Source: a virus
Strand: one strand, 5' to 3'
Length of the DNA: 59,762 nucleotides
Virus record (IMG/VR): IMGVR_UViG_3300005432_000333
Coordinates: 1-59,762 of that record
Position numbers and translations under genes: made by a program
Part shown: positions 5,483-37,561 of the stretch, piece by piece
Position numbering within the stretch: position 1 is the first letter of the stretch
How the letters are laid out: the number at the start of each line of letters is the position of its first letter
Notes under the pieces: generated by a model
Told to the model about the DNA's origin: nothing
Database searches by the model: none
Seen by the model: only the letters and a program-made list of their open reading frames with translations

Positions 5483-5803
5483 TTAATCCCATTTGTCACT
5501 GAAATCTTTATACAAACTATATTCTGCTGTAAGTTCATCTCCGGCCTTGATTGTTTTGGTAGTCATTAGGTAATGTACTGGTAATTGATGCCAAAAACCT
5601 TTTACATTCCTACAATTCGGATTATCTGAATGATTGTAAAATGCTCCTAAGGCAGTTCTAATTGCTCCATGTGGAAAATTTTTATTCCGAATATGCACTA
5701 TTCCTAACACAACGTCAGCGTCGAAATCCTTTGTTGCAAATAGTCCGAGACCCTGCACATCAGATTCCCTCACAGTCAATCCGTCTGGTAATGGTTTATA
5801 CAT
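5483..5803 (-). CDS. SET-domain protein (putative protein lysine methyltransferase)
   Basis: Only 106 residues, essentially a minimal SET domain. GLGLFATKDF (18-27) is the N-terminal SET motif, YNHSDNPNC (56-64) the SAM/pseudoknot motif, and GDELTAEYSLY (88-98) the catalytic tyrosine motif. SET proteins of this size transfer methyl groups from SAM to lysine side chains; chlorella virus vSET is a comparable minimal example. There is no post-SET cysteine cluster. Its end is 19 nt from the glycosyltransferase start and its start overlaps the peroxiredoxin stop by 8 nt. The target (host or virion protein) is unknown. Confidence 0.8.
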   Translation of the reverse strand: MYKPLPDGLTVRESDVQGLGLFATKDFDADVVLGIVHIRNKNFPHGAIRTALGAFYNHSDNPNCRNVKGFWHQLPVHYLMTTKTIKAGDELTAEYSLYKDFSDKWD

Positions 5804-6347
5804 TTCCCCTTTTTGCTTTAAGGTCTTTCAAGAATTCCAACATGGTTTTTGCATCTGATACTTCAAATGGATCATTGTCTTCACTTGAATTGTTTTGTCC
5901 TTCTTCAACAAACTGTTTTACAATAGTTCCGTTTTCGACATACATAGAATATCTCCATGATCTCATTCCGAAACCCTGTGCCGGTTTGCTTACAAGAAAT
6001 CCTGCACCTTGTGTAAAAACACCTTCACCATCTCCTATTGGCTTGACCTTCTTGATATCTTGATTTTTAAACCAAGCATTCATTACAAAAGCATCGTTTA
6101 CTGAAAGACAGTAAATTTCGTCGACACCCTGTGCTTTGATTTCATCATACAGTTCTTCATAACCTGGCAACTGCTGTGAACTACAAGTGGGCGTAAATGC
6201 TCCTGGAAGTGCAAAAACGACAATTTTCTTGTTATCAAAAATTTCAACTGTGTCTACGTCTTTCCATTCACCACCTATAAATCCGCAACCACCTACTGCT
6301 GTGTCGTCGCCTGTTCTAGTTTTAAAATTTGTGTATGGTACTTTCAT
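5796..6347 (-). CDS. Peroxiredoxin, Prx5-like
   Basis: 183-residue thiol peroxidase reducing hydrogen or organic peroxides. The active-site block PGAFTPTCSSQQLPGY gives T52 and the peroxidatic Cys at 55. The YCLSVNDAFVMNAWFKNQ stretch is characteristic of the Prx5/redoxin group, and Arg in GMRSWRYSMYVENG is the supporting arginine. C80 could be a resolving cysteine. An AGGAGAG ribosome site precedes the ATG at 6347. With the superoxide dismutase at 21740-22294 it forms an oxidative-stress pair. Viral peroxiredoxins are uncommon. Confidence 0.88.
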   Translation of the reverse strand: MKVPYTNFKTRTGDDTAVGGCGFIGGEWKDVDTVEIFDNKKIVVFALPGAFTPTCSSQQLPGYEELYDEIKAQGVDEIYCLSVNDAFVMNAWFKNQDIKKVKPIGDGEGVFTQGAGFLVSKPAQGFGMRSWRYSMYVENGTIVKQFVEEGQNNSSEDNDPFEVSDAKTMLEFLKDLKAKRGNV

Positions 6348-21739: not shown

Positions 21740-22294
21740 TTATTCATCTGCCCTCAAAGTTATTACTCCACAGGCCAATCTATCGCCTGCGTTTCCTGTT
21801 TTCAAACTTTCTTGATCTCCGCCTTTTCCGAGATCATCCTCATCTGCATGTACCACAAGTCCTCTTCCAACAACAGATCTTTCACCAATTAGGTCTACCC
21901 TACTTGCCTTTATTGAGAAATCTGCCTTGCCAGTTTCGTCGGCTGTTATGTTGCCTAAATCTCCCACGTGTCCTTCATTTAGGTCTCCGTGATCGACTCC
22001 ATCTGGATTGTAATGTCCACCCATCGATTCACAACCTTTGCTCATGTCGCCAAACTCGTGTATGTGGAATCCGTGAAGTCCAGGTTTCAGTCCTGTGATT
22101 GTGCCTTTGATCAAAGTTGGAGTTCCGGGAGCCTGCATCAATAATATACTGCCATTGACGTCATCCGAATGTTGTAAGTCACATTGTGCAATCACAGTGG
22201 ATTCACCCTCTGTGATGCTTTTTACCCTGCTACAAGAACATTCTTTTGCTCTAGTCCTAGGACATTTTGTTTCTGTGAATTCTGTGGCTCGCAT
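21740..22294 (-). CDS. sodC: Cu/Zn superoxide dismutase with head-targeting-like N-terminus
   Basis: 184 residues. All metal ligands of Cu/Zn SOD are present: H77, H79, H94 and H149 for copper; H94, H102, H109 and D112 for zinc. The disulfide pair is C88/C175 and the active-site arginine is R172 in DRLACGV. Bacterial SodC normally has a secretion signal; here the N-terminus is MRATEFTETKCPRTRAKE, a charged segment that fits the shared late-protein motif, with AKE|C as possible cleavage. The ATG at 22294 sits 7 nt after a late promoter. I infer packaging into the virion. An upstream in-frame start at 22480 would run through the neighbouring gene and is rejected. Confidence 0.9.
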   Translation of the reverse strand: MRATEFTETKCPRTRAKECSCSRVKSITEGESTVIAQCDLQHSDDVNGSILLMQAPGTPTLIKGTITGLKPGLHGFHIHEFGDMSKGCESMGGHYNPDGVDHGDLNEGHVGDLGNITADETGKADFSIKASRVDLIGERSVVGRGLVVHADEDDLGKGGDQESLKTGNAGDRLACGVITLRADE

Positions 22295-22301
22295 ATGCGA
22301 G

Positions 22302-22309
22302 TATTTATT
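22302..22309 (-). promoter_or_regulatory. T4-type late promoter for the SOD gene
   Basis: AATAAATA on the minus strand, 7 nt before the ATG at 22294; it overlaps the stop region of the 22305-22514 gene. Confidence 0.65.
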
Positions 22310-22514
22310 TGTTTTTGGGCATTGGGTTTTCACCAGTGAGTTTAGGTTGTGCGAACCATAGTTTAAACCACTCGGGTGTACCCGGTTTGATATTGTGTTT
22401 TCTTTGATATTGTGATTTTTGTGTACCCACGTATGATAGATTTTCACCCATGGATTCATCTGCAGGTAGTTTATCCACACCTGCTAATTGCTTTATTCTC
22501 TCCAACTCGTCCAT
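22305..22514 (-). CDS. Small late protein (LAGV N-terminus, PEWFKLWF motif)
   Basis: 69 residues. N-terminus MDELERIKQLAGV resembles the start of many small T4-like cyanophage proteins. The C-terminal KPGTPEWFKLWFAQP motif followed by KLTGENP is conserved in marine phages. Function unknown. The ATG at 22514 immediately follows the TAA of the 59-residue gene upstream, so both are co-translated. Confidence 0.6.
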   Translation of the reverse strand: MDELERIKQLAGVDKLPADESMGENLSYVGTQKSQYQRKHNIKPGTPEWFKLWFAQPKLTGENPMPKNK

Positions 22515-24844: not shown

Positions 24845-25176
24845 TTGTACATCCTTTCGAATATTTCGGTGATTTCAATCCTACGTCCGCCCTGTGCCTC
24901 AAACTCGTCTATGAATTTGTCTATCAAGTTAGCCGCCAATCTTCTGTATTCTGGAAGTACATCTGCCTGTAATTTTTGTATCGACTTTTGTGGTACCGAC
25001 TCAACTATTGTGCCAACAGGCATACTATCAATCCAACTTCCTGCCTTGCACATATCATTCTGTATCTTGTGTAGTTCCTTGGTTGGATTAAATGTAGGTA
25101 ATATTTTACGTGATTCGTCTACAAGTACGCACATCAAAGTGCCAAAATAATCTTCTTTGTATATCTCTTTTTGCAT
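24832..25176 (-). CDS. Hypothetical protein, helical C-terminus
   Basis: 114 residues, mixed alpha/beta N-terminus (FGTLMCVLVDESRKILPTF) and helical C-terminus (LPEYRRLAANLIDKFIDEFEAQ). No domain or membrane segment recognised. It begins at the stop of the subtilisin-like lipoprotein gene and overlaps the 64-residue gene by 13 nt. Confidence 0.5.
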   Translation of the reverse strand: MQKEIYKEDYFGTLMCVLVDESRKILPTFNPTKELHKIQNDMCKAGSWIDSMPVGTIVESVPQKSIQKLQADVLPEYRRLAANLIDKFIDEFEAQGGRRIEITEIFERMYKWKK

Positions 25177-28136
25177 TACTCTTCTATTGGAACAAACATG
25201 TCCTTTTCAAGATCATACTTGAGTCCATGCATTTCTGCGTTGTTGATTGTGCCGTTTTGTGCGGCATATAATTTCTTCATATCTATTGGTGTTCCGTCCT
25301 CGTTGAAACATTTTGGATTTTTTGCCCATCCTAATTTTTTATCAAGTAGTTTGATTCCGGTGTTTGGAATTCCACAAGCAAGGTTTAATCTTTTGAAATA
25401 TTTCAATCCTACTTGTACACCATCTTCGCCTTGTTGTCCTGCTATATCCTGTCTGTATTCAGCACTGAAACTGAACGTTGCATCAAAGTCATCCGCTGGT
25501 TGATGTGCGAAGAAGAATCCAAAGTTCTTTTCCCTTGTATCCTGCTTAAGATCACTCTGTATGTTTTTGTAATTAATCGTTCCATCTAGATTAACACTTT
25601 CGGCTACTTCCAAGTCCATCGTGCCTGATGTTATATGACTTGGAAGTGAGAACGACCAACCGAAAGTTGTTTGCGTATCTTTGTGTATTTCATACGCCAA
25701 CCTGTAAGATTCTGTTTCAATGTCTGAGAAATTTTTAATCAGACTGTTGCTTGTGGTGTTTACATTTGTGTGTCCTTTAGTGTAATCAAGACTCAATACA
25801 TTATTTCCAAGTAAGTACTCTACACCTATGTTTCCAAAATTAGTGTTGTTGTTGTCTCCAACTGCAAGTATACCATCCGAAGAATTACCCAACCAAGTTT
25901 CTTGTTCACTCATCTGTCCTACACTTGTTTTCAATTTAAAGTTGTTATGCAACATAAAGTTCTTACCTATGTTTGCCGAGTAATCTCCGCCTCCGTTCTC
26001 ACCTGTGTAAAATCCAAAATTGTAATTATTAAGTAGGCTGTATTGTCCGCCTTGTGAGAAAGAACCAAAACTTTGATTCACTGGCAAGAAAGTGTTGTTG
26101 TTCACCATTAACATTTCTGTGTCAGAATATTTTCTATTATCCTGTACAGTGATGCTTGAACCAAGATTGATGTAGTAATCTCTGTCATAATCATCTAGCA
26201 CCATTATTTTCAGTCCCTGTAAATTTGAAAATGCTCCTGTAGAACCTGTGGCAAAGTATGTGTTGTTTAATGTTGTCACAGTTCCATCAACTCTGCCTGT
26301 TGTTGGAATACCTACTGCCCCTTGCGGTTTAGTTGCCTCGTCCAGGTCTAACATACCTTGTCCGTGAATATTGACATCATATCCATTAATGTTTGTGTCT
26401 GCGGTGTTCAAAACAAGTTGCACTAGGTTTTCACCTTTCATGTGTGGCCACATCTGATGTAAGATACCAACTGCACCTGTCACTTGCGGTGCCGCCATAC
26501 TCGAACCACTCATCTCAGAATAACCGTCACCGGCAACACTTGAAAATACATTATTACCTGGTGCCAATATGTAAAAATCTTTTACTTGATATTTGTCATT
26601 ACATTTGTTATCAACAATATCTAAACAGACGTGTCCTGATTTACTGCCTACAACCTGTCCGTCTTCTTTTGTGCCACCCCAGTTTCCTACAATAAGCATT
26701 TTGCCGCCTAGCACAAGGTTGCCGTTAGAGTCAACTTCTGTTGCCCATATACCTGGGTCAAGTGCAAATTCGGTGTTGACTTCTCCGTCTACCATCATAC
26801 CGTTACCTGCTGAATTTACAAGTACCACATCGTTGTCTGTGCCAACTTTCCAATAACTGGAACTGCCTTTATTTGCAGTAATTACTGAAGATGAATATGT
26901 GCCGTCGTCTAATTTTTTAATTGTGCCATAGTGATTAAATTGTATATTTTTGTTGAAACTCATATTCACTGCAACAATGTTCATGCCTTCTCCGCCATCA
27001 GACTTTTTTGCTTTAAGTTTTACAATATCATGTAAGGCGTTCTGTGCCTGGCCCATATTTGCATTTGAATTTCCGTAATAGTCAACATTGGCGCCGACTA
27101 GTTCTGCATCATAGGCCACACCGTGAAACTGATTGTCATCTTTGTTACCTGCAATTATACCTGCCACGTGTGTACCGTGCGATTGATATTTTCCTTTATT
27201 TTCAACAATCGAGTCATTTAAAACGTAATCTTTGTACCATTTGTATTTGCCATCTAATGCTTCGTGATCTGTTTGTTGATATGTGTCTATAACACCTAAC
27301 ACAGATCCTTTACCTGTCCAACCTCTTGCATAGGCCTTGTCAGCATTGATGATTGATTTACTAGTATCCTTGTTGAATTCTGTTGTTCTAAATTCGTGTC
27401 CAAGTGTTTTTACTACCTTCTTCTCTTCTTCCTTTTTCTCTTCCTTCTTCTCTTCTTTTACTTCCTCTTCTTTTTCTACTTTATTCTCTTCTTTTTTAGT
27501 TTCTTCTTTTTTAGTTTCTTCTTTTTTAGTTTCTTCTTTTTTGGCTACTTTCTTTTCCTTGTCTGCATTAATTTTTGTTTTCTTGTCTGCCACATATGTC
27601 GCCACCGTGTTTTCCTTTTCTTGCTTGATTATTTCTTCTGCTTTCTTATCACTGGCAACTTTGTTATATTCTGTAAGAGATAATTTCTGTCCTTGGGATA
27701 CTTTCTGTATCACTGGTTTCACATGGTCTTTCAAATATAATATTGCCGCATGGGCATTTTTGTAATCTTCACTGTTGTATATTTGCAATTTTGTGTCTGC
27801 ATCTTGTGATTCAATAAGGTCTAGTGTTTGCGTCCATAAAGTTTCTGCTTGGTCCAGCATGGTTAATAGATTGCCAGCCTTTGCAATATCCTTTTCTGTA
27901 GGTCCTGTGATAATTGCAGAAAGTCCTGCCAAATTACCACTAGATATTGTATTATTAAATCCACTTAATAAAGATGAATAAGAACTTATTATGGATTCAC
28001 TGCCTGTAAGACTTGACAGATCATCTTGCACAAAATTAGAAACAGAACCAATCGCACCACCGCCACCACCTCCGCCACAGGCTGTCAACGTAGTGGCCAT
28101 TACACCCGATAGTACAATGTTTCTTAACTTTTTCAC
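25176..28136 (-). CDS. Subtilisin-like (S8) serine protease lipoprotein with autotransporter-like C-terminus
   Basis: 986 residues. The GTG at 28136 overlaps the stop of the upstream gene (GTGA) and opens a lipoprotein signal: KKLRN, a hydrophobic stretch, then LTAC with lipidated C20 and a glycine run. After a helical region and a Lys/Glu-rich linker (about 195-245) comes the S8 domain: D284 (GVIDTYQQTDHE), H320 (SHGTHVAGIIAG) and S546 (GSSMAAP). The C-terminal 370 residues alternate like outer-membrane beta strands, as in S8 autotransporters, but do not end in the usual aromatic residue. A surface-located protease displayed on the infected cell, or carried on the virion, is inferred. Such large secreted proteases are rare in phages. 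Confidence 0.85.
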   Translation of the reverse strand: MKKLRNIVLSGVMATTLTACGGGGGGGAIGSVSNFVQDDLSSLTGSESIISSYSSLLSGFNNTISSGNLAGLSAIITGPTEKDIAKAGNLLTMLDQAETLWTQTLDLIESQDADTKLQIYNSEDYKNAHAAILYLKDHVKPVIQKVSQGQKLSLTEYNKVASDKKAEEIIKQEKENTVATYVADKKTKINADKEKKVAKKEETKKEETKKEETKKEENKVEKEEEVKEEKKEEKKEEEKKVVKTLGHEFRTTEFNKDTSKSIINADKAYARGWTGKGSVLGVIDTYQQTDHEALDGKYKWYKDYVLNDSIVENKGKYQSHGTHVAGIIAGNKDDNQFHGVAYDAELVGANVDYYGNSNANMGQAQNALHDIVKLKAKKSDGGEGMNIVAVNMSFNKNIQFNHYGTIKKLDDGTYSSSVITANKGSSSYWKVGTDNDVVLVNSAGNGMMVDGEVNTEFALDPGIWATEVDSNGNLVLGGKMLIVGNWGGTKEDGQVVGSKSGHVCLDIVDNKCNDKYQVKDFYILAPGNNVFSSVAGDGYSEMSGSSMAAPQVTGAVGILHQMWPHMKGENLVQLVLNTADTNINGYDVNIHGQGMLDLDEATKPQGAVGIPTTGRVDGTVTTLNNTYFATGSTGAFSNLQGLKIMVLDDYDRDYYINLGSSITVQDNRKYSDTEMLMVNNNTFLPVNQSFGSFSQGGQYSLLNNYNFGFYTGENGGGDYSANIGKNFMLHNNFKLKTSVGQMSEQETWLGNSSDGILAVGDNNNTNFGNIGVEYLLGNNVLSLDYTKGHTNVNTTSNSLIKNFSDIETESYRLAYEIHKDTQTTFGWSFSLPSHITSGTMDLEVAESVNLDGTINYKNIQSDLKQDTREKNFGFFFAHQPADDFDATFSFSAEYRQDIAGQQGEDGVQVGLKYFKRLNLACGIPNTGIKLLDKKLGWAKNPKCFNEDGTPIDMKKLYAAQNGTINNAEMHGLKYDLEKDMFVPIEE
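27420..27545 (-). repeat. Lys/Glu low-complexity tract inside the S8 protease gene
   Basis: Tandem codon-level repeats encode KKEETKKEETKKEETKKEEN followed by EE/KK-rich sequence, which on the plus strand reads as repeats of ttcttcttttttagt. It separates the helical N-terminal part from the protease domain and is prone to length change by slippage. Confidence 0.8.
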
Positions 28137-28318
28137 TGCAATAGATTCCCCATTATGAAAGCACCAAGTAAAAAGAAAAGTGCATATCTGGTTAATACTG
28201 AAGTATTCTTGAGAACTTTGTATCCGTTCTCTCGAAGGCATATAACATGGGCATCAATTGATTCCGATGTTATTTTCACATCAACTGTGTTGATCTGTTC
28301 TAGGTCATTGTCGTTCAT
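28133..28318 (-). CDS. Small tail-anchored membrane protein
   Basis: 61 residues: a soluble N-terminus (1-40) and a single C-terminal membrane segment, TRYALFFLLGAFIMGNLLQ. Its stop overlaps the GTG of the S8 protease gene, so the two are coupled. A sigma70 promoter ends 6 nt before the ATG at 28318, which makes this the leaderless first gene of the protease unit. Function unknown. Confidence 0.65.
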   Translation of the reverse strand: MNDNDLEQINTVDVKITSESIDAHVICLRENGYKVLKNTSVLTRYALFFLLGAFIMGNLLQ

Positions 28319-29302: not shown

Positions 29303-29915
29303 TTTTAACCTTTCTAAATTTGATCACTTTATCAATTGCCTCCTGTGCCATCATGTATATTGGAGTGATAAAACGTTCTTGTGTTACGTAGAAATAGCCT
29401 CCGAAACAATATGGACATCTATTTTCTAAATAATCCATCACGGCATACCCTGGAATATAACAGTGGTCTATGTTTCTTTCGATGAAGTATCTTAAGTTTT
29501 CTCTTTGTGTATCATTTATGTATAGTTGTGCGTCTTTTTTTAAATGAATTTGATAATGGTACTTGCCATGTGGTAATCTGGTGCAACCAATTGTATTTGG
29601 TTGGAGATCGTTCAATTTTGGATCCACACTTTCAGACCCTATCCAGTACTCCCAAAATCTTTCGATCAGTTGCTGTGCTAGGTTTTGATCGGAATAAAAT
29701 ATTGCTTTTTTTCCTTGAAATCTAAATTTAATTTTTTTCCTATTATTCATTATAAAATCTGCAAGAAAATGCATGTCAGGAGCATCCGGGTAATTTTTTT
29801 TGACTTGTAAAAGATGTTCGTTAGTGGTAGGATAAAACATCAAACTACCAGGCACCCGCAACACTGTCTTGTGCTTGAATAAACCATAGTATAATTTATT
29901 ATGATGTTTTCTCAT
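29274..29915 (-). CDS. Hypothetical protein with Cys pair
   Basis: 213 residues. YYGLFKHKTVLRVPGSLMFYPTTNEHLL near the start, HGKYHYQIHLKKDAQL in the middle, and a CPYCFGGYFYV segment near the C-terminus that could bind metal or form a disulfide. Similar unknown proteins occur in T4-like marine phages. It overlaps the ClpA stop by 17 nt and so follows it in the same transcript. Confidence 0.55.
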   Translation of the reverse strand: MRKHHNKLYYGLFKHKTVLRVPGSLMFYPTTNEHLLQVKKNYPDAPDMHFLADFIMNNRKKIKFRFQGKKAIFYSDQNLAQQLIERFWEYWIGSESVDPKLNDLQPNTIGCTRLPHGKYHYQIHLKKDAQLYINDTQRENLRYFIERNIDHCYIPGYAVMDYLENRCPYCFGGYFYVTQERFITPIYMMAQEAIDKVIKFRKVKNAGNKKTTR

Positions 29916-32238
29916 CTGACACCGTTGGCTTGACTTGGTCTAATATCTCAGTCTTTTTTCCTGCCTTAAAGTTTACTGTAAGTTTAGGCACAACGTCATC
30001 TGAAAGTCCTACCTCTACCATTCCACCTGCTGTCAGTTCACCAAACAACATCATCTTAGATAATGGCTTTTTGATCTCGTCGTCTATGACACGTTGTAAT
30101 GGTCTAGCACCTAGTTTAGAATCGAATCCTTTTGTCATTAAAAATTCTATTGCATCGTCTGTTGCATTAACTTCAACATCTTTTTCGATAGTCATTGCGT
30201 TTAATTCTTGTAGGAATTTTTTCACAACAGATTTCATAGTCTCTTTGCCAAGTTTGTCAAATTTTATTACTGCATCTAATCTGTTTCTAAACTCCGGCGG
30301 AAAGAATTTTTTAAGAGCGACTTCGTCCTCGCCGGTTCTTTCACTTGGTCCAAAACCTATGTTGTTTCTTTCATTCTCTTCCGCACCTAAGTTAGAAGTC
30401 ATTATGAGTGTGATATTTCTACAGTCTGCTTTCTTACCATTTGAACCAGTAACCGTACCATAGTCCATAACTTGTAATAGCATATTAGACACATCTCGAT
30501 GTGCTTTTTCAATTTCATCAAACAGTACCACTGCGTGTGGATTCTTTTCTACTTCATTTATAAACATACCACCGCCCATTTGCGAATCTTCATATCCTAC
30601 ATATCCTGGAGGTGATCCAATTAATTTTGCAATTGAATGTTTTTCTTGATATTCAGACATGTCAAATCTTACAAGTTCAACTCCCAGTGTTTTTGCTAGT
30701 TGTCTAGCAGTCTCAGTCTTACCACAACCTGTTGGTCCTAAGAATAAGAATGATCCAACTGGTTTGTTTAAACTTTTTAATCCTGCTCTTGCAACAAGTA
30801 TTTTGTCTGTGATTGTGTTTATTGCTCTATCCTGTCCAAAAACTTGTAATTTCATTTTTTCTTCTAGTGTTTTCAAATTACTTGCTTGTTTCTGAGATAA
30901 TTGTTCAATACTAATTCCAGTCATTTGTGATATCTCATGGATTATTTCATCATGATCAATCTTACCATCTTTGACTCCTTTTAATCTCAATCTAGCACAG
31001 GCAACATCCAAGACATCTATTGCTTTATCAGGCAGTTTCTTGTCTGCTATAAATTTGCTCGAATAATCAACTGCGTCTTCACAAGCCTCGTCTGTAATAG
31101 TGCATTTGTGAAACTTCTCATAATATTGTTTTACACCTTTTAGTATTTTGATTGAAGTTTCCTTAGTCGGTTCACCCACTTGCAATCTTTGGAATCTTCT
31201 CATAAGTGCTCTGTCTTTTTCGAAATACTTTCTGTACTCCTCCCAAGTTGTAGAAGCAACAACTTTAATTGTTCCTTTAAGAAGTGCTGGTTTAAGCATA
31301 TTGGCCATATCCATGCTGTTGCCTTGTCCTGTTGCACCTGCACCTACCATCATATGTGCTTCGTCAACAAATAGTATTGATTTCCCTTTTTGATCAAGTG
31401 CATTTATAATCAGTTTTAATCTCTCTTCAAAATCTCCTCTAAACTTAGATCCTGCTATCAATGAATTAGTGTCCAGGCTCCATACAATATGATCTTTCAG
31501 ATATTCAGGAACATCTGCTTTGTTCTTGGCTATACGTCTAGCAAGTCCCTCGACTACTGCTGTCTTACCAACTCCTGGGTCACCAACTATTAATACATTG
31601 TTCTTGTTTCTTCTTGCAAGTATTTGTTTTAGATTCTCTGTTTCTTCTTCCCTACCAATCACGGGATCAATTTTCTTGTCAAAATATTTTTGGTTAAGAT
31701 TTTCACAGTAACTTTTTAGAATTCTATCTGCTTGATTTGGTCTAAGTCTTTGTTCTTGTCCCGGGTGTACACCGCCCATTTGTGCCATGCCTTCGTCTAG
31801 TATTGTTTCTGTAGACACTAGATCCATTAAGTCTTGTTTGTTTACTTGATGTTTCTTTAGAAAGAATGCCGCATAACTTTTCTTCTCTGCAAAAATTGAT
31901 ATGAGAATATCTATTGCATTGACATCTTGTCTGCCTTGGAATAATGCCTGAGTGAATGCTCTGTTCATTAGTCTTTCTAATGATGCAGTCTTTCTTGGAG
32001 TGACAGGCTCCTTTCCTTTTGTAACAATGTCATTACATTTTGTATCAAGGTAATCTTCTACATCACGTATCAAGGTTGGCATTGGCACTTTAAAATCATG
32101 TAGAACTGTGCCAATGTTCTCATCTTTAATAAGTGCTAACAGCACGTGTTCTATTGTGACGTACTCGTGTCTTCTCTTCTCGGCTTCCTTAACTGCATTT
32201 TCGAATATGTTTTCTAGGCTTTCGTTTGCTTCTAACAT
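29899..32238 (-). CDS. clpA: ATP-dependent Clp protease ATPase subunit ClpA
   Basis: 779 residues (E. coli ClpA 758). Clp N-domain repeats at about 1-140; AAA+ module D1 with Walker A GDPGVGKT (219-226); AAA+ module D2 with GPTGCGKTE (about 490), SEYQEKHSIAKLIGSPPGYVGYE and FPPEFRNRLDAVI. The loop NNIGFGPSE corresponds to the ClpP-docking IGL/IGF loop, so it should work with a host ClpP; no clpP is in the window. There is no ClpB middle domain. The ATG at 32238 follows GGAGTGGAA; a GTG two codons earlier is the alternative. Redirecting host proteolysis is a reasonable inference. Confidence 0.93.
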   Translation of the reverse strand: MLEANESLENIFENAVKEAEKRRHEYVTIEHVLLALIKDENIGTVLHDFKVPMPTLIRDVEDYLDTKCNDIVTKGKEPVTPRKTASLERLMNRAFTQALFQGRQDVNAIDILISIFAEKKSYAAFFLKKHQVNKQDLMDLVSTETILDEGMAQMGGVHPGQEQRLRPNQADRILKSYCENLNQKYFDKKIDPVIGREEETENLKQILARRNKNNVLIVGDPGVGKTAVVEGLARRIAKNKADVPEYLKDHIVWSLDTNSLIAGSKFRGDFEERLKLIINALDQKGKSILFVDEAHMMVGAGATGQGNSMDMANMLKPALLKGTIKVVASTTWEEYRKYFEKDRALMRRFQRLQVGEPTKETSIKILKGVKQYYEKFHKCTITDEACEDAVDYSSKFIADKKLPDKAIDVLDVACARLRLKGVKDGKIDHDEIIHEISQMTGISIEQLSQKQASNLKTLEEKMKLQVFGQDRAINTITDKILVARAGLKSLNKPVGSFLFLGPTGCGKTETARQLAKTLGVELVRFDMSEYQEKHSIAKLIGSPPGYVGYEDSQMGGGMFINEVEKNPHAVVLFDEIEKAHRDVSNMLLQVMDYGTVTGSNGKKADCRNITLIMTSNLGAEENERNNIGFGPSERTGEDEVALKKFFPPEFRNRLDAVIKFDKLGKETMKSVVKKFLQELNAMTIEKDVEVNATDDAIEFLMTKGFDSKLGARPLQRVIDDEIKKPLSKMMLFGELTAGGMVEVGLSDDVVPKLTVNFKAGKKTEILDQVKPTVSDEKTS

Positions 32239-32440
32239 TTCCACTCCAATCTATTAATCCTTTTTGTATCTTTAAATGTGTTGCTATGTCTTTGTCGTCC
32301 CATTCCAATTCCTGCTGTATGGCCGCTATCAATCTTTCCACATCTTTTTGTGTCTGTGTTTGTTTTGCATATGTGCCATTTAATATTTTCCATGCCTTAG
32401 TTTCCTTTGGTCTTTTTATTTTTTGTTTGCCATTTCCCAT
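32189..32440 (-). CDS. Small basic hypothetical protein
   Basis: 83 residues, basic N- and C-termini (KQKIKRPKETKAWK; RSKRKPRKHIRKCS). Between them is a helix-rich QTQTQKDVERLIAAIQQELEWDDKDIATHLKIQKGLIDW. It overlaps clpA by 50 nt and the peptide deformylase by 25 nt. The long overlap with clpA is unusual, but the reading frame is open and basic proteins like this are common here. Function unknown. Confidence 0.5.
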   Translation of the reverse strand: MGNGKQKIKRPKETKAWKILNGTYAKQTQTQKDVERLIAAIQQELEWDDKDIATHLKIQKGLIDWSGNVRSKRKPRKHIRKCS

Positions 32441-32910
32441 CGTAGTTTAGATACCCTTTGATTAAACGTAATACCGTCAAGGTGATCGCATTCATGCTGG
32501 AAACACTTGGATTCCATTCCATCGAGTCTTGCTGTTTTTGTTTCACCTTTTGTTGTTTCATATTGTACTTCTACTGTCTTTGGTCTTTCTACTTTCAACC
32601 ATACTCCTTTAAAACTTAAACATCCTTCTAAGTCTATAACTTTTTCTTCACTAAAACTTATCACCTTTGGATTCCAAATTATAGCATGTTTTTGAAATGT
32701 GTCAAATGTTTCATGACCTATCGCAAAGAATCTTTTGGTAATGCCTACCTGGTTTGCGGCCAGTCCCATTCCTTTCTCGTCCAGCATCAACTTGATGTAG
32801 TCGTTTTCAAATTTTTGCAGGTCGTCGTATCCTTCAATGCTGTCATCGTGCGACCACTCCGTGCTAGTCTGTAGCAGTGTCTCGTGTGGGTATTGGAACA
32901 GTTGTATCAT
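32416..32910 (-). CDS. def: Peptide deformylase
   Basis: 164 residues. Removes the N-formyl group from nascent proteins, using a metal held by C97, H139 and H143. The three family motifs are present: GLAANQVGI (49-57, usual GLAAxQ), EGCLS (95-99) and HECDH (139-143, catalytic E140). Marine phages such as cyanophages carry comparable deformylases. It is coupled to the DnaJ-like gene upstream (4-nt overlap), which makes a small protein-maturation set with clpA and the GroES-like gene. Confidence 0.95.
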   Translation of the reverse strand: MIQLFQYPHETLLQTSTEWSHDDSIEGYDDLQKFENDYIKLMLDEKGMGLAANQVGITKRFFAIGHETFDTFQKHAIIWNPKVISFSEEKVIDLEGCLSFKGVWLKVERPKTVEVQYETTKGETKTARLDGMESKCFQHECDHLDGITFNQRVSKLRWEMANKK

Positions 32911-33761
32911 AGGTCTTTAATCTTTTTCAAATCCTGTGCTGACAGTTGTGGTATCAGTATGTGTATCTTGACATACAAATTACCTTTAATATTTAATGTT
33001 TTATGGACAGGCATGCCTTGCCCTTTGACAGCCAACAGGGTGTTTGGTTGTGTGCCTGCAGGCACTTTAACTTTTATAATTTTATCCTCCAGTGTTTTCA
33101 AATTGAATTCATGTCCTCGCACCGCCTGGAAACAGTCTATTGTCTTGTCTGTGTACAAGTCGTTACCCTTACGAGTATAGCCATCGGAATCCAACACACT
33201 CATTACCACCATCAAATCTCCTCGTGGTTGATTCTTGATGCTATCATCTCCCATTCCAGAAAATTTAAATGTCACACCGTGTTGCACTCCTGCCGGTATT
33301 TTGACAGTGGCAAATTCTTCCCTACCAGATGGCAGTTTGTAGTTGATTGTTTTCTCATTATTCATCATTGCTTCTTTGATCGAAATTGCCATCCTCACTT
33401 GTACATTCCTGTTGCCTCTTTGTTGATGTCGTCTAAATGGACGTCCTCCGGTTGTAAAGTTAAATCGCCCTCCCAAATCCATATCACCATCGCCAAAGCC
33501 TGAGAAAAAATCTCCAAATATGTCTTCGTTGAAGAAAGGATGTTGTTGGTTTCCCGTACCTCCAAATTTACGCATGGTGTCGTAGTCATGTCTCTTCTGT
33601 GAGTTCTTCAGTGTGTCATAGGCTTCGTTTGCTTCTTTGAATCTTGCTTCGTTGCCGCCCCTGTCAGGATGTTCTTTCTTTGCTATATCTTTGAATGCTT
33701 TCTTTATTTGGTCAGAAGAAGCGTCCTCAGACACACCTAGTATGTCGTAATAATTTTTCAT
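32907..33761 (-). CDS. DnaJ-like co-chaperone (CbpA type)
   Basis: 284 residues. J-domain at 1-66 with H31-P32-D33. A G/F-rich linker (67-110: FFSGFGDGDMDLGGRF) and two C-terminal DnaJ substrate-binding domains (MAISIKEAMMN, LPSGREEFATVKIPAGVQHG, VRGHEFNLKTLEDKIIKVKVPAGTQPNTLLAVKGQGMP) follow. The CxxCxGxG zinc finger is absent, so it is a class B, CbpA-like co-chaperone for host DnaK. A leaderless sigma70 promoter drives it, making the DnaJ/deformylase/clpA chain an early or middle unit. Confidence 0.93.
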   Translation of the reverse strand: MKNYYDILGVSEDASSDQIKKAFKDIAKKEHPDRGGNEARFKEANEAYDTLKNSQKRHDYDTMRKFGGTGNQQHPFFNEDIFGDFFSGFGDGDMDLGGRFNFTTGGRPFRRHQQRGNRNVQVRMAISIKEAMMNNEKTINYKLPSGREEFATVKIPAGVQHGVTFKFSGMGDDSIKNQPRGDLMVVMSVLDSDGYTRKGNDLYTDKTIDCFQAVRGHEFNLKTLEDKIIKVKVPAGTQPNTLLAVKGQGMPVHKTLNIKGNLYVKIHILIPQLSAQDLKKIKDL

Positions 33762-35229: not shown

Positions 35230-35556
35230 TTATGCTCCTGAGTGTACTTTTATAATCCTCATTCCGTATTTTGTCTGCGAATCTTCTTCCAAATCCGCTT
35301 TCAATATTTTACAAGCAAACTGGACCCTGTCCTGCTTACCGTTGGAATCCATTTCCCTTTGTGCTACTCTCTTTGATTTCATGCAGGCAGATAGATTGGG
35401 TTTGAAAACGTGTTCAATCATTTTGCCGTTTAGATACAATATCAAGCCAATTACACCTTCCTTGTCAAGATGTTTCTTGCCGGGTTTGTATTCTAATGCA
35501 GTTACGGTTGTTGTTAGTAAAAATAAAACAATTAAAATTCTAGTGACTATTGCCAT
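35230..35556 (-). CDS. Secreted protein B (paralogue pair with 34743-35228)
   Basis: 108 residues with an N-terminal signal peptide (ILIVLFLLTTTVTA). The mature part has NGKMIEHVFKPNLSACMKSKRVAQRE and VQFACKILKADLE, matching the two-Cys pattern of its neighbour, probably one disulfide. It lacks the His/Cys-rich extension. It ends one base before the neighbour starts and overlaps the next upstream gene by 17 nt. Envelope or lysis role inferred from signal and context. Confidence 0.6.
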   Translation of the reverse strand: MAIVTRILIVLFLLTTTVTALEYKPGKKHLDKEGVIGLILYLNGKMIEHVFKPNLSACMKSKRVAQREMDSNGKQDRVQFACKILKADLEEDSQTKYGMRIIKVHSGA

Positions 35557-35980
35557 TTGTGTATTTCATCTCTCTGTTGCTGTCTTTCAATTTCTCGACA
35601 TCTTCTCTGAGTAATTTTACATCTTCTTGGAGACGTTTTATGTTAACACCGTTGTTCATCATGTTTTCCATACGCTCTTGAATTTTTTCCACTTGCATGG
35701 CGATGTGTTCTATCAACATGAACTGTTCTGAATCTGCCGGTGGGGAACCTAATTCACCACGTGGCCATTTAATCCTAAATTCGTTGTTCTTGTCGATGTC
35801 AGCGCCTAGCCTTTGTTCTACTTGCTGTAAGTCTTTCTCAGACAGTTGTGCTTTTGTTTCGAGGTTATTCAGTCTTTCTATGACACCAAAGTACGCCCAA
35901 ACCCCAACCGCTACTGCGGCCAAGATGGAAAGTAAATTCCGCATTGGCATTGAAATTGATGTTGAATCGCTGATCTTCAT
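35540..35980 (-). CDS. Membrane-anchored coiled-coil late protein
   Basis: 146 residues. N-terminal polar MKISDSTSISMPMR, one membrane segment (NLLSILAAVAVGVWAYFGVI, 15-34), then coiled coil (LNNLETKAQLSEKDLQQVEQRL and VEKIQERMENMMNNGVNIKRLQEDVKLLREDVEKL). The N-terminus partly resembles the shared late-protein motif but lacks the Glu. Strong late promoter upstream. Virion or spanin-like functions are both possible; none is proven. Confidence 0.65.
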   Translation of the reverse strand: MKISDSTSISMPMRNLLSILAAVAVGVWAYFGVIERLNNLETKAQLSEKDLQQVEQRLGADIDKNNEFRIKWPRGELGSPPADSEQFMLIEHIAMQVEKIQERMENMMNNGVNIKRLQEDVKLLREDVEKLKDSNREMKYTNGNSH

Positions 35981-36007: not shown

Positions 36008-36226
36008 TTATTTTTTCTCTACTAGGTTCATCAGATCTTGTACGGTCTGGACTTTATCACCGTCGTCCTCTGATATTTTCACCCCTGTCGCTTTTTCCAC
36101 CTGTATGCACAATTCTATTGTGTCAAATGGATCTGCACCTAGATCATTCACTAGGTGTGCTTCTGGGGTGACCTTGCTTTCCGCAACATCTAGGTGTTCT
36201 GCTATTACTTTAATTACTGTCTGCAT
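36008..36226 (-). CDS. Acyl carrier protein-like, missing the phosphopantetheine serine
   Basis: 72 residues, four-helix ACP pattern (VIKVIAEHLDV, DLGADPFDTIELCIQVEKATGVKIS, TVQDLMNLVEKK). In functional ACPs the second helix begins G-A-D-S-L; here it reads G-A-D-P33-F, so the serine that carries 4'-phosphopantetheine is a proline (codon CCA; one base from TCA). It therefore should not carry acyl groups. It could act as a structural decoy binding host ACP partners. The start lies 17 nt inside the lipoprotein gene, preceded by GGGAGAAGAGA. Confidence 0.85.
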   Translation of the reverse strand: MQTVIKVIAEHLDVAESKVTPEAHLVNDLGADPFDTIELCIQVEKATGVKISEDDGDKVQTVQDLMNLVEKK

Positions 36227-36611
36227 TCTCTTCTCCCTCGTAATATTTCTTGTACTCTTCCAGGAGACTATTGGTTTCCTGTAATTTCTGTCTTATCTGT
36301 GCGAAGTTCCTTGCAAGTACCTGGAAGTCCTTGTCTGTGATTCCGAATAGCACGGGGTCTATACCTGCGTCCTCTAGTTTCTTGAATACTTCTTCTGCGT
36401 TTTTGCTTGTGATGATGATCCATTTGATCTCTTCCATCTGCAACGGTGTGGGCATCTCGTAGTTCAATTTCTCCCTTGGCTTCTCAACTGAGAATATCTT
36501 GATCTTCTTCTCACCACCTATACTACATCCTGATAATAGCATACACACCATCAGTGGTACTGCTACTATCCATGCTAGTCTATGAGTTTTATCTTTATTG
36601 ATGTGGTACAT
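36210..36611 (-). CDS. Lipoprotein, Rz1-like outer-membrane spanin candidate
   Basis: 133 residues. A hydrophobic signal (WIVAVPLMVCMLLSGC) ends in the lipobox LLSGC, so the mature protein is lipid-anchored from Cys29. The rest is helical and acidic, with a C-terminal coiled coil (FAQIRQKLQETNSLLEEYKKYYEG). It follows an Rz-like inner-membrane gene, overlapping it by 17 nt. That pairing is the usual arrangement for a two-component spanin that fuses inner and outer membranes at lysis. Spanins cannot be confirmed by sequence alone. Confidence 0.6.
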   Translation of the reverse strand: MYHINKDKTHRLAWIVAVPLMVCMLLSGCSIGGEKKIKIFSVEKPREKLNYEMPTPLQMEEIKWIIITSKNAEEVFKKLEDAGIDPVLFGITDKDFQVLARNFAQIRQKLQETNSLLEEYKKYYEGEENADSN

Positions 36612-37068
36612 AATTTGGATTCGCTAGTGCTGGGCACTCTGGGTTGATTTGTGATTTTAAAGTTGCTTTTAATTCTTCTTCTGTGTGTTCGGCACCTGAC
36701 GCCAGTTCAATGCATCTCGCCGCATTCTTGCCACCCTTGTTTATTACCCTCTCAACAGATGTGGTTCTCTCTAATGCTAGTTTGCCGATGTCTCTTTTTT
36801 TCTTTGTGAATCTTTTGTCTAGGTCATTTAAATCTTTTTTAAATGTGTTGATCAATACATTAAGTTTCTTGTTGCTTTCCATTATTGCTTCGAAGTCTTT
36901 TTTCTGTTGTTCCAAAACTTTAGTTTGCTCAGCGACGGCAGTTTCAAGTTTAATCTGATTTGCTTTCAAGGTGGCGTTGTCTGCCCTCAATTTCATAACA
37001 TACATACCGGCTCCAGCAATACCAGTGATAAGGATCACTGCGAAAATCATTTTGATACTTGAAAACAT
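36595..37068 (-). CDS. Rz-like inner-membrane spanin candidate
   Basis: 157 residues. One N-terminal membrane segment (IFAVILITGIAGAGMYVM), then a long coiled coil (LRADNATLKANQIKLETAVAEQTKVLEQQKKDFEAI..., to about residue 90), then a domain with C118 and C145. The topology (N-in, periplasmic coiled coil) is that of Rz-type i-spanins. It overlaps the M15 peptidase stop by one base and is followed by a lipoprotein gene, completing an endolysin / i-spanin / o-spanin order. Confidence 0.65.
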   Translation of the reverse strand: MFSSIKMIFAVILITGIAGAGMYVMKLRADNATLKANQIKLETAVAEQTKVLEQQKKDFEAIMESNKKLNVLINTFKKDLNDLDKRFTKKKRDIGKLALERTTSVERVINKGGKNAARCIELASGAEHTEEELKATLKSQINPECPALANPNYVPHQ

Positions 37069-37529
37069 TATTCGTATAAGCCGGACTTATAAACAGTCTT
37101 GCCATTCTCCTTTGTAGCAGTCAGCACATGTTTTCTGTTTCCTTCTGACTTATAGGAAACGTGTACCCAACCCGAATCAGGTATGCCAGGTGTGTAAAAT
37201 TCTAATATGAGTTGATCGAACTCAAGATTTTCTCTTATCCAATTTGCTACATCATAGTTTGGCGTGCCAGGACATTCGATATCTACTGCCTCACCTTTGC
37301 AGTGTTGTGATTTACTCGAGCCTCCAACTGCTTCATTTAATGCTGGTCCCCTGTATCCTGAATTGATCACTGTGACACCAAAGTTGTCTCTTACTTTCTG
37401 CACAACATTTTCAAACAATTCTTTGGCACTTGCTAGATGTTCTTCGTTGGGAGTGTTGTCAATGCCTTGCCTGGTTGCAGTTTGACTTTTTACAAATTCC
37501 TGTAATGTGAAGTTCGCACTTAATCTCAT
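37068..37529 (-). CDS. M15 family D-Ala-D-Ala carboxypeptidase-like endolysin
   Basis: 153 residues, Peptidase_M15_3 pattern. Zinc ligands H76 and D83 lie in the SxHxxGxAxD motif (SQHCKGEAVD) and H123 in WVHVSY. The N-terminal NFTLQEFVKSQTA and INSGYRGPALNEAVGG are typical of phage M15 endolysins that cleave peptidoglycan cross-links. No signal peptide, so a holin is needed for export; the holin-like gene at 33807 is a candidate. I start at the ATG at 37529; an in-frame TTG at 37544 would place the late promoter inside the gene. Confidence 0.85.
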   Translation of the reverse strand: MRLSANFTLQEFVKSQTATRQGIDNTPNEEHLASAKELFENVVQKVRDNFGVTVINSGYRGPALNEAVGGSSKSQHCKGEAVDIECPGTPNYDVANWIRENLEFDQLILEFYTPGIPDSGWVHVSYKSEGNRKHVLTATKENGKTVYKSGLYE

Positions 37530-37534
37530 GTAAT

Positions 37535-37542
37535 TATTTATC
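37535..37542 (-). promoter_or_regulatory. T4-type late promoter for the lysis unit
   Basis: GATAAATA on the minus strand, 5 nt before the ATG at 37529. Confidence 0.55.
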
Positions 37543-37561
37543 AATATATGCGTATATTATT

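Follow-up and report, generated by a model that had tools for sequence, protein, structure and literature searches.

Repeated loss of the phosphopantetheine serine in a marine phage family of acyl carrier protein-like proteins

The serine that receives 4'-phosphopantetheine is the residue that defines carrier proteins, and a phage gene for an acyl carrier protein (ACP) with proline at this position raises the question of what kind of protein it encodes and what that protein may be kept for. The gene was analysed within the window, by which we mean the whole stretch of 59,762 nucleotides of IMG/VR record IMGVR_UViG_3300005432_000333 (Table 1). The first-pass annotation had read D32-P33-F34, with proline codon CCA, inside an otherwise intact GAD...DTIEL motif and gave no strand; the reading was borne out on the minus strand. 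Its assignment of the product to the ACPs was upheld by profile, family, structural neighbours and predicted fold. The open reading frame (ORF) matched the Pfam PP-binding profile PF00550 at 36.3 bits (cut-off 20.8) and PHROG 5934 'acyl carrier protein' with an E value of 9e-13. An AlphaFold2 model of the window protein (pLDDT 87) contained four helices at residues 2-12, 33-47, 53-58 and 62-70, and the best Foldseek matches to this model were solved ACPs with TM scores up to 0.95, placing it in the four-helix ACP fold. Both of the nearest solved chains shown aligned are ACPs and have serine opposite Pro33 of the query. Predicted helix II starts at Pro33 in the model, with Asp32 as its N-cap. 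Proline is well tolerated as the first helix residue after an Asp N-cap, and helix II should stay stable. Judged by sequence and predicted structure, the window protein is an ACP by descent and fold. As the serine that takes up 4'-phosphopantetheine is absent from it, we file it as an ACP-like protein and not as an acyl carrier.

Table 1. Coordinates of the ACP-like gene, its codon 33 and adjoining genes in the window
Feature	Coordinates	Strand	Remarks
Downstream gene, no assigned function	35540..35980	minus	PHROG 20984; directly after the spanin in relatives without an ACP there
ACP-like gene	36008..36226	minus (36226->36008)	72 aa plus stop; GADPFDTIEL
Codon 33, CCA, Pro; phosphopantetheine attachment position	36128..36130	minus	Alignment to solved ACPs
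Rz1-like outer spanin lipoprotein, upstream gene	36210..36611	minus	PHROG 812; its last 17 bases overlap the beginning of the ACP gene
Rz-like inner spanin	36595..37068	minus	PHROG 739
Endolysin	37068..37544	minus	PHROG 894

Relatives were collected by scans of IMG/VR that returned 15, 20, 45 and 5 loci. The first scan (15 loci) employed six patterns, one of which spanned the proline site and hence favoured Pro members, while the patterns of the other scans left this site out. A scan of cellular genomes yielded one family member, on a contig of a Pelagibacter metagenome-assembled genome (MAG; L316), and one other ACP. The family proper comprised 23 loci including the window, or 17 distinct proteins after leaving out six loci encoding the same protein as a kept row (L001, L002, L008, L012, L293 and L363). 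Core members were 79-100% identical to the window protein. A second group was formed by L291-L293 and L362/L363, in which L291 and L292/L293 were 54-57% identical to the window protein and L362/L363 82% identical to L292. Aligning related phage proteins had been proposed earlier as a check on whether proline is conserved, and the alignment gave a mixed picture: residue 33 was proline in 10 of the 17 distinct members, serine in 4 and alanine, isoleucine and asparagine in 1 each. Counted by locus, with duplicates and the window included, the figures were 13 Pro, 4 Ser, 2 Ala, 2 Ile and 2 Asn, and the codon appeared across the family as CCA, CCG, CCT, TCA, GCA, ATC or AAC. A simple substitution of serine by proline, as first described, is thus too narrow an account, since three further residues also occur at the site.

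The loss of serine is nevertheless real: relatives also have non-serine residues at the site, and purifying selection acts on the remainder of the protein. Median pairwise dN/dS was 0.077 among the 14 distinct core members (87 of 91 pairs usable), this and the other dN/dS and codon 33 figures being simple counts and not the output of a codon model. A sequencing error, named by the first-pass annotation as something that would undo its claim, or a pseudogene would explain a proline in one record, and apart from its being a single substitution nothing speaks for either. Proline at 13 of 23 loci by way of CCA, CCG and CCT is neither chance nor read error, dN/dS is about 0.08 despite large synonymous divergence among core members (mean pS 0.50), and stop codons were found in none of the family members. 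Error and pseudogene were both ruled out on these grounds, and their probability is close to nil.

Further analysis of codon 33 was performed on a DNA tree built without that codon. Site 33 was the most changeable of the 72 sites, with 6 changes among 5 residues against a mean of 1.2 changes per site, and its neighbours D32, F34, D35 and E38 showed no change and were invariant in all 17 distinct members. By parsimony, 6 nonsynonymous changes fell on codon 33, where neutrality predicts about 7.8; the average rate of the protein predicts 1.0 (P(>=6) 0.0005, Poisson approximation). AU tests rejected monophyly of the core Pro members (p 0.006) and, likewise, of the Ser members (p 0.012); the tree used there, built on another set of rows, needed 5 changes at the site. 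Because the trees are weakly resolved, whether 5 or 6 changes are counted depends on the tree, and recombination between phages could inflate the count; five residues require at least 4 changes on any tree. The attachment residue is released from constraint while the rest of the protein is constrained, and, as read from these alignments, serine loss at this site is repeated within the marine phage family. The data at codon 33 fit neutral release, and selection for losing serine is also compatible with them. Relatives with serine, which had been put forward as a finding that would refute the loss, do exist (4 of 17), and what they reveal is repeated change at the site. Given that relatives share the serine loss and the protein is under purifying selection, the evidence is best read in line with the earlier suggestion of a protein retained for binding and not for acyl chemistry, and this descendant of the ACP fold very probably works without a phosphopantetheine arm.

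In order to gauge how common serine loss is outside the family, IMG/VR was scanned for versions of the attachment motif. The serine version, DLGAD-Ser-[LF]-[DE], was present in at least 120 stretches, at least 111 of them above 15 bits with a small ACP profile built here. The proline version occurred in 61 stretches, of which 14 scored above 15 bits; 10 of these were clear ACPs, all in this family, and the other 4 (17-18.5 bits) shared one common frame and were not ACP-like. The alanine version gave 86 stretches and 4 ACPs, 2 of them in this family. Two IMG/VR ACPs outside the family, L281 and L279, have alanine at the attachment site (GADALE and GADALD). Serine was kept in 11 of 11 phage-collection ACPs read (10 DSL and 1 DSF, from 24 records found) and in 30 of 30 Pelagibacter-group AcpPs read, an AcpP match being present in 32 of 41 genomes.

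Beyond residue 33 the family is marked by F34, I41 and L65 (E. coli L37, M44 and A68) in 17 of 17 distinct members. The helix II acids D32, D35, E38 and E44 (E. coli D35, D38, E41 and E47) were likewise kept in all 17. Phenylalanine at position 34 was found in one of the 111 Ser-type viral ACPs listed, itself a family member; to call F34 unique to the family would be over-reading, as phage record MW202777.1 also has DSF. At the acyl pocket position corresponding to E. coli F50, all 16 members read (L362 not among them) have Thr or Leu, against Phe or Tyr in 104 of 111 Ser-type viral ACPs among the matches listed. In place of E. coli E48, 13 of these 16 members have Lys and the others Gln or Ile. 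The first-pass claim that fold-determining residues are conserved holds for the fold and for the N-terminal acidic patch of helix II formed by these four acids, but the helix II surface is retained only in part, with L37F, E48K and F50T in E. coli numbering. E48K alters the charge of helix II in its C-terminal half, and the protein may have lost the ability to bind known ACP partners.

The serine-bearing members (L013, L014, L015 and L017) represent three lineages. They could still be carriers, modified by host AcpS, with the Pro, Ala, Ile and Asn forms as escapes or decaying versions, and their number (4 of 17 distinct members) and their sharing of the fold and family marks are what such a history would leave. 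It is an improbable one given that purifying selection is stronger in the Pro members (median dN/dS 0.044 among nine Pro core members), that four different non-serine residues persist, and that the Ser members carry F34 and the altered acyl pocket just as the non-Ser members do. All four Ser members are changed at G30 or T36 (G30D in L013 and L014, T36K in L015, T36I in L017), and both residues are constant in 13 of 13 non-Ser members; with only three Ser lineages this pattern is a lead and not a test. The arm might also sit on another residue such as Thr36, one helical turn on, which is present in all 13 non-Ser members and missing from two of the three Ser lineages. Threonine is ordinary at this position, however, occurring in 32 of 111 Ser-type viral ACPs listed and in 30 of 30 Pelagibacter AcpPs, and to our knowledge AcpS is not expected to transfer the arm to threonine, which leaves this alternative very improbable.

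The gene had been placed in a lysis region, and two Rz-like spanins and an endolysin do lie directly upstream, though this location gives no clue to function. Ten other family loci, the MAG contig and nine from IMG/VR, have all or part of this lysis region. Among the cassette phages, L001/L002 left out, the ACP is 89-97% identical to that of the window, compared to 66-89% for the spanins. The gene does not stay with the cassette in relatives, where it was found in at least five other neighbourhoods (at least six including the window). L007/L008 and L013/L014 have genes homologous to those of the window with the ACP placed elsewhere; in L013/L014-type records endolysin, spanin and spanin are followed by the next gene with no ACP between, and the ACP lies about 15 kb off. 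A lysis function read from position was rejected on account of these arrangements. The ACP follows tail sheath and tail-tube-like genes and precedes further late genes in L011/L012, is located between virion structural protein and tail sheath stabilizer genes in L362, follows a large protein without assigned function in L017, and is away from virion genes in L007 and L013. Its start overlaps the end of the upstream gene or lies within 2 bases of it in all six places inspected (window, L007, L011, L013, L017 and L362). The ACP gene moves between operons, and no partner gene common to all six neighbourhoods was found.

These neighbourhoods bear on the main rival explanation, a structural or assembly adaptor, in which a late phage protein would bind a virion, tail-assembly or lysis protein with need of neither host target nor arm. 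The position of the gene among lysis or virion genes in three neighbourhoods (window, L011/L012 and L362) is consistent with this, as is the use of ACPs as subunits of larger assemblies, with MukBEF and the Nfs1-ISD11 complex among the Foldseek matches. Against it, the six neighbourhoods have no partner gene in common and the ACP of L007 and L013 is away from virion genes. In known assemblies with an ACP subunit, moreover, the ACP normally bears its arm. We regard an adaptor as rather unlikely. Very lysine-rich small proteins are encoded beside the acidic ACP in L013 (4066-5004 and 5226-5621) and L007 (4597-5001), one of those in L013 being joined to an FMN-reductase-like stretch.

The viral records were also searched for carrier machinery. 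An ACPS-type phosphopantetheinyl transferase (PF01648) was found in none of 12 viral records, window included, these records being fragments. There was no second carrier, 11 of 11 records and the window having one each, and a Pfam scan of 40 window ORFs turned up no enzyme for fatty-acid or polyketide synthesis. The gene therefore lacks the linked fab, pks, acyltransferase or activating transferase genes of an auxiliary metabolic gene, though in fragmentary records absence is no proof.

The sole cellular link of the family is L316 (CAJQJC010000070.1), a phage contig with the gene order of the window inside the Pelagibacter MAG. Its G+C content of 42% is near that of the window (40%) but far from the 28% around the AcpP gene of the MAG itself, a mismatch that makes mis-binning likely, and SAR11 (Pelagibacter) was rejected as an established host. 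PlsX scored above cut-off in 29 of 41 Pelagibacter-group genomes and PlsB in 0 of 41; as the host link of the group is doubtful, these tests say little.

The best explanation of the whole, to which we assign a probability of roughly 0.4, is a phage apo-ACP binder that is free of the arm and competes at host ACP partners. The protein would be a phage-borne descendant of a bacterial ACP without an arm; in its apo form it may bind AcpP-docking enzymes or regulators of the host in competition with holo- or acyl-AcpP, and host lipid synthesis or an ACP-sensing regulator might thereby be slowed or diverted. A decoy for host ACP partners, the partner being presumed, is our tentative first choice because no fixed phage partner gene exists, the docking acids are kept and an obligate apo-ACP is harmful. 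A host target is also easier to reconcile than a phage partner with a gene that occurs in six or more neighbourhoods and has no constant companion. Against a decoy stand the retention of serine in 4 of 17 members, the remodelled C-terminal half of helix II and the lack of PlsB in the Pelagibacter group, whose host link is doubtful. In a stronger version, marine phages would spread a natural, permanently apo, dominant-negative ACP that blocks or diverts lipid synthesis in the host or regulation by ACP sensing, serine having been removed repeatedly by selection so that host AcpS cannot make a working carrier; this version is rather unlikely and somewhat more doubtful than the decoy itself.

Binding without the arm has some precedent. 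E. coli ACP reportedly acts in the synthesis of membrane-derived oligosaccharides with no need of its prosthetic group (work attributed to Therisod and Kennedy, 1987), although it is the normal host ACP and not a dedicated serine-less one. According to PMC4736557, overexpression of the obligate apo S39A ACP of S. elongatus suppressed growth; like the phage protein this is a folded ACP unable to take the arm, but it is a laboratory mutant, whereas the serine-less phage forms are natural. PMC3896788 reports stronger inhibition of glycerol-3-phosphate acyltransferase by apo-ACP than by holo-ACP. This precedent speaks for a decoy; the lack of its enzyme, PlsB, in the Pelagibacter group tested counts against one, and so does the statement in PMC3896788 that SpoT shows no interaction with apo-ACP.

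Compared to bacterial AcpP of type II fatty acid synthesis (PF00550), the family shares the four-helix fold, the DLGAD-x-x-D motif and acids D35, D38, E41 and E47; it differs in the absence of serine from 13 of 17 members, in having no fab genes nearby and in the substitutions L37F, F50T/L, E48K/Q/I and A68L. With annotated phage ACPs (PHROG 5934), such as those of Erythrobacter phage vB_EliS-R6L, Brevundimonas phage Bajun, Xanthomonas phage XbC2 and Olleya phage Harreka_1, it has in common that a tailed phage carries just one small ACP gene, but the 11 phage-collection ACPs read all keep the serine that the window protein lacks. Phage ACPs have been described before, with a function that PMC5463345 calls unclear; no report of a serine-less phage ACP was found in the open-licence literature searched. 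An otherwise tightly conserved ACP whose least conserved site is the defining serine gives direct evidence that selection acts on something beyond acyl carriage, and the naturally occurring P, A, I, N and S forms offer a ready set for probing the role of phage ACPs.

As for the phage itself, its DNA polymerase and clamp loader point, at less than 60% identity, to large T4-like and jumbo phages (Sinorhizobium phage Phosso, Agrobacterium phage Atu_ph07, Pseudomonas phage PA5oct and their kin), and the window therefore probably covers only part of a larger phage genome. Other genes in the window include oxidative-stress genes with a Cu/Zn superoxide dismutase domain (21740-22480) and a redoxin (5796-6347), a gene for a subtilase (S8) domain protein of 1021 aa (25176-28241), and an adjoining Clp-like ATPase, peptide deformylase and DnaJ-like protein (29899-33761; DnaJ by sequence reading). 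One Pelagibacter-group genome has a weak second carrier (L354), a different protein that lies, by reading of the frames, between acyl-AMP-ligase-like and MBOAT-like genes.
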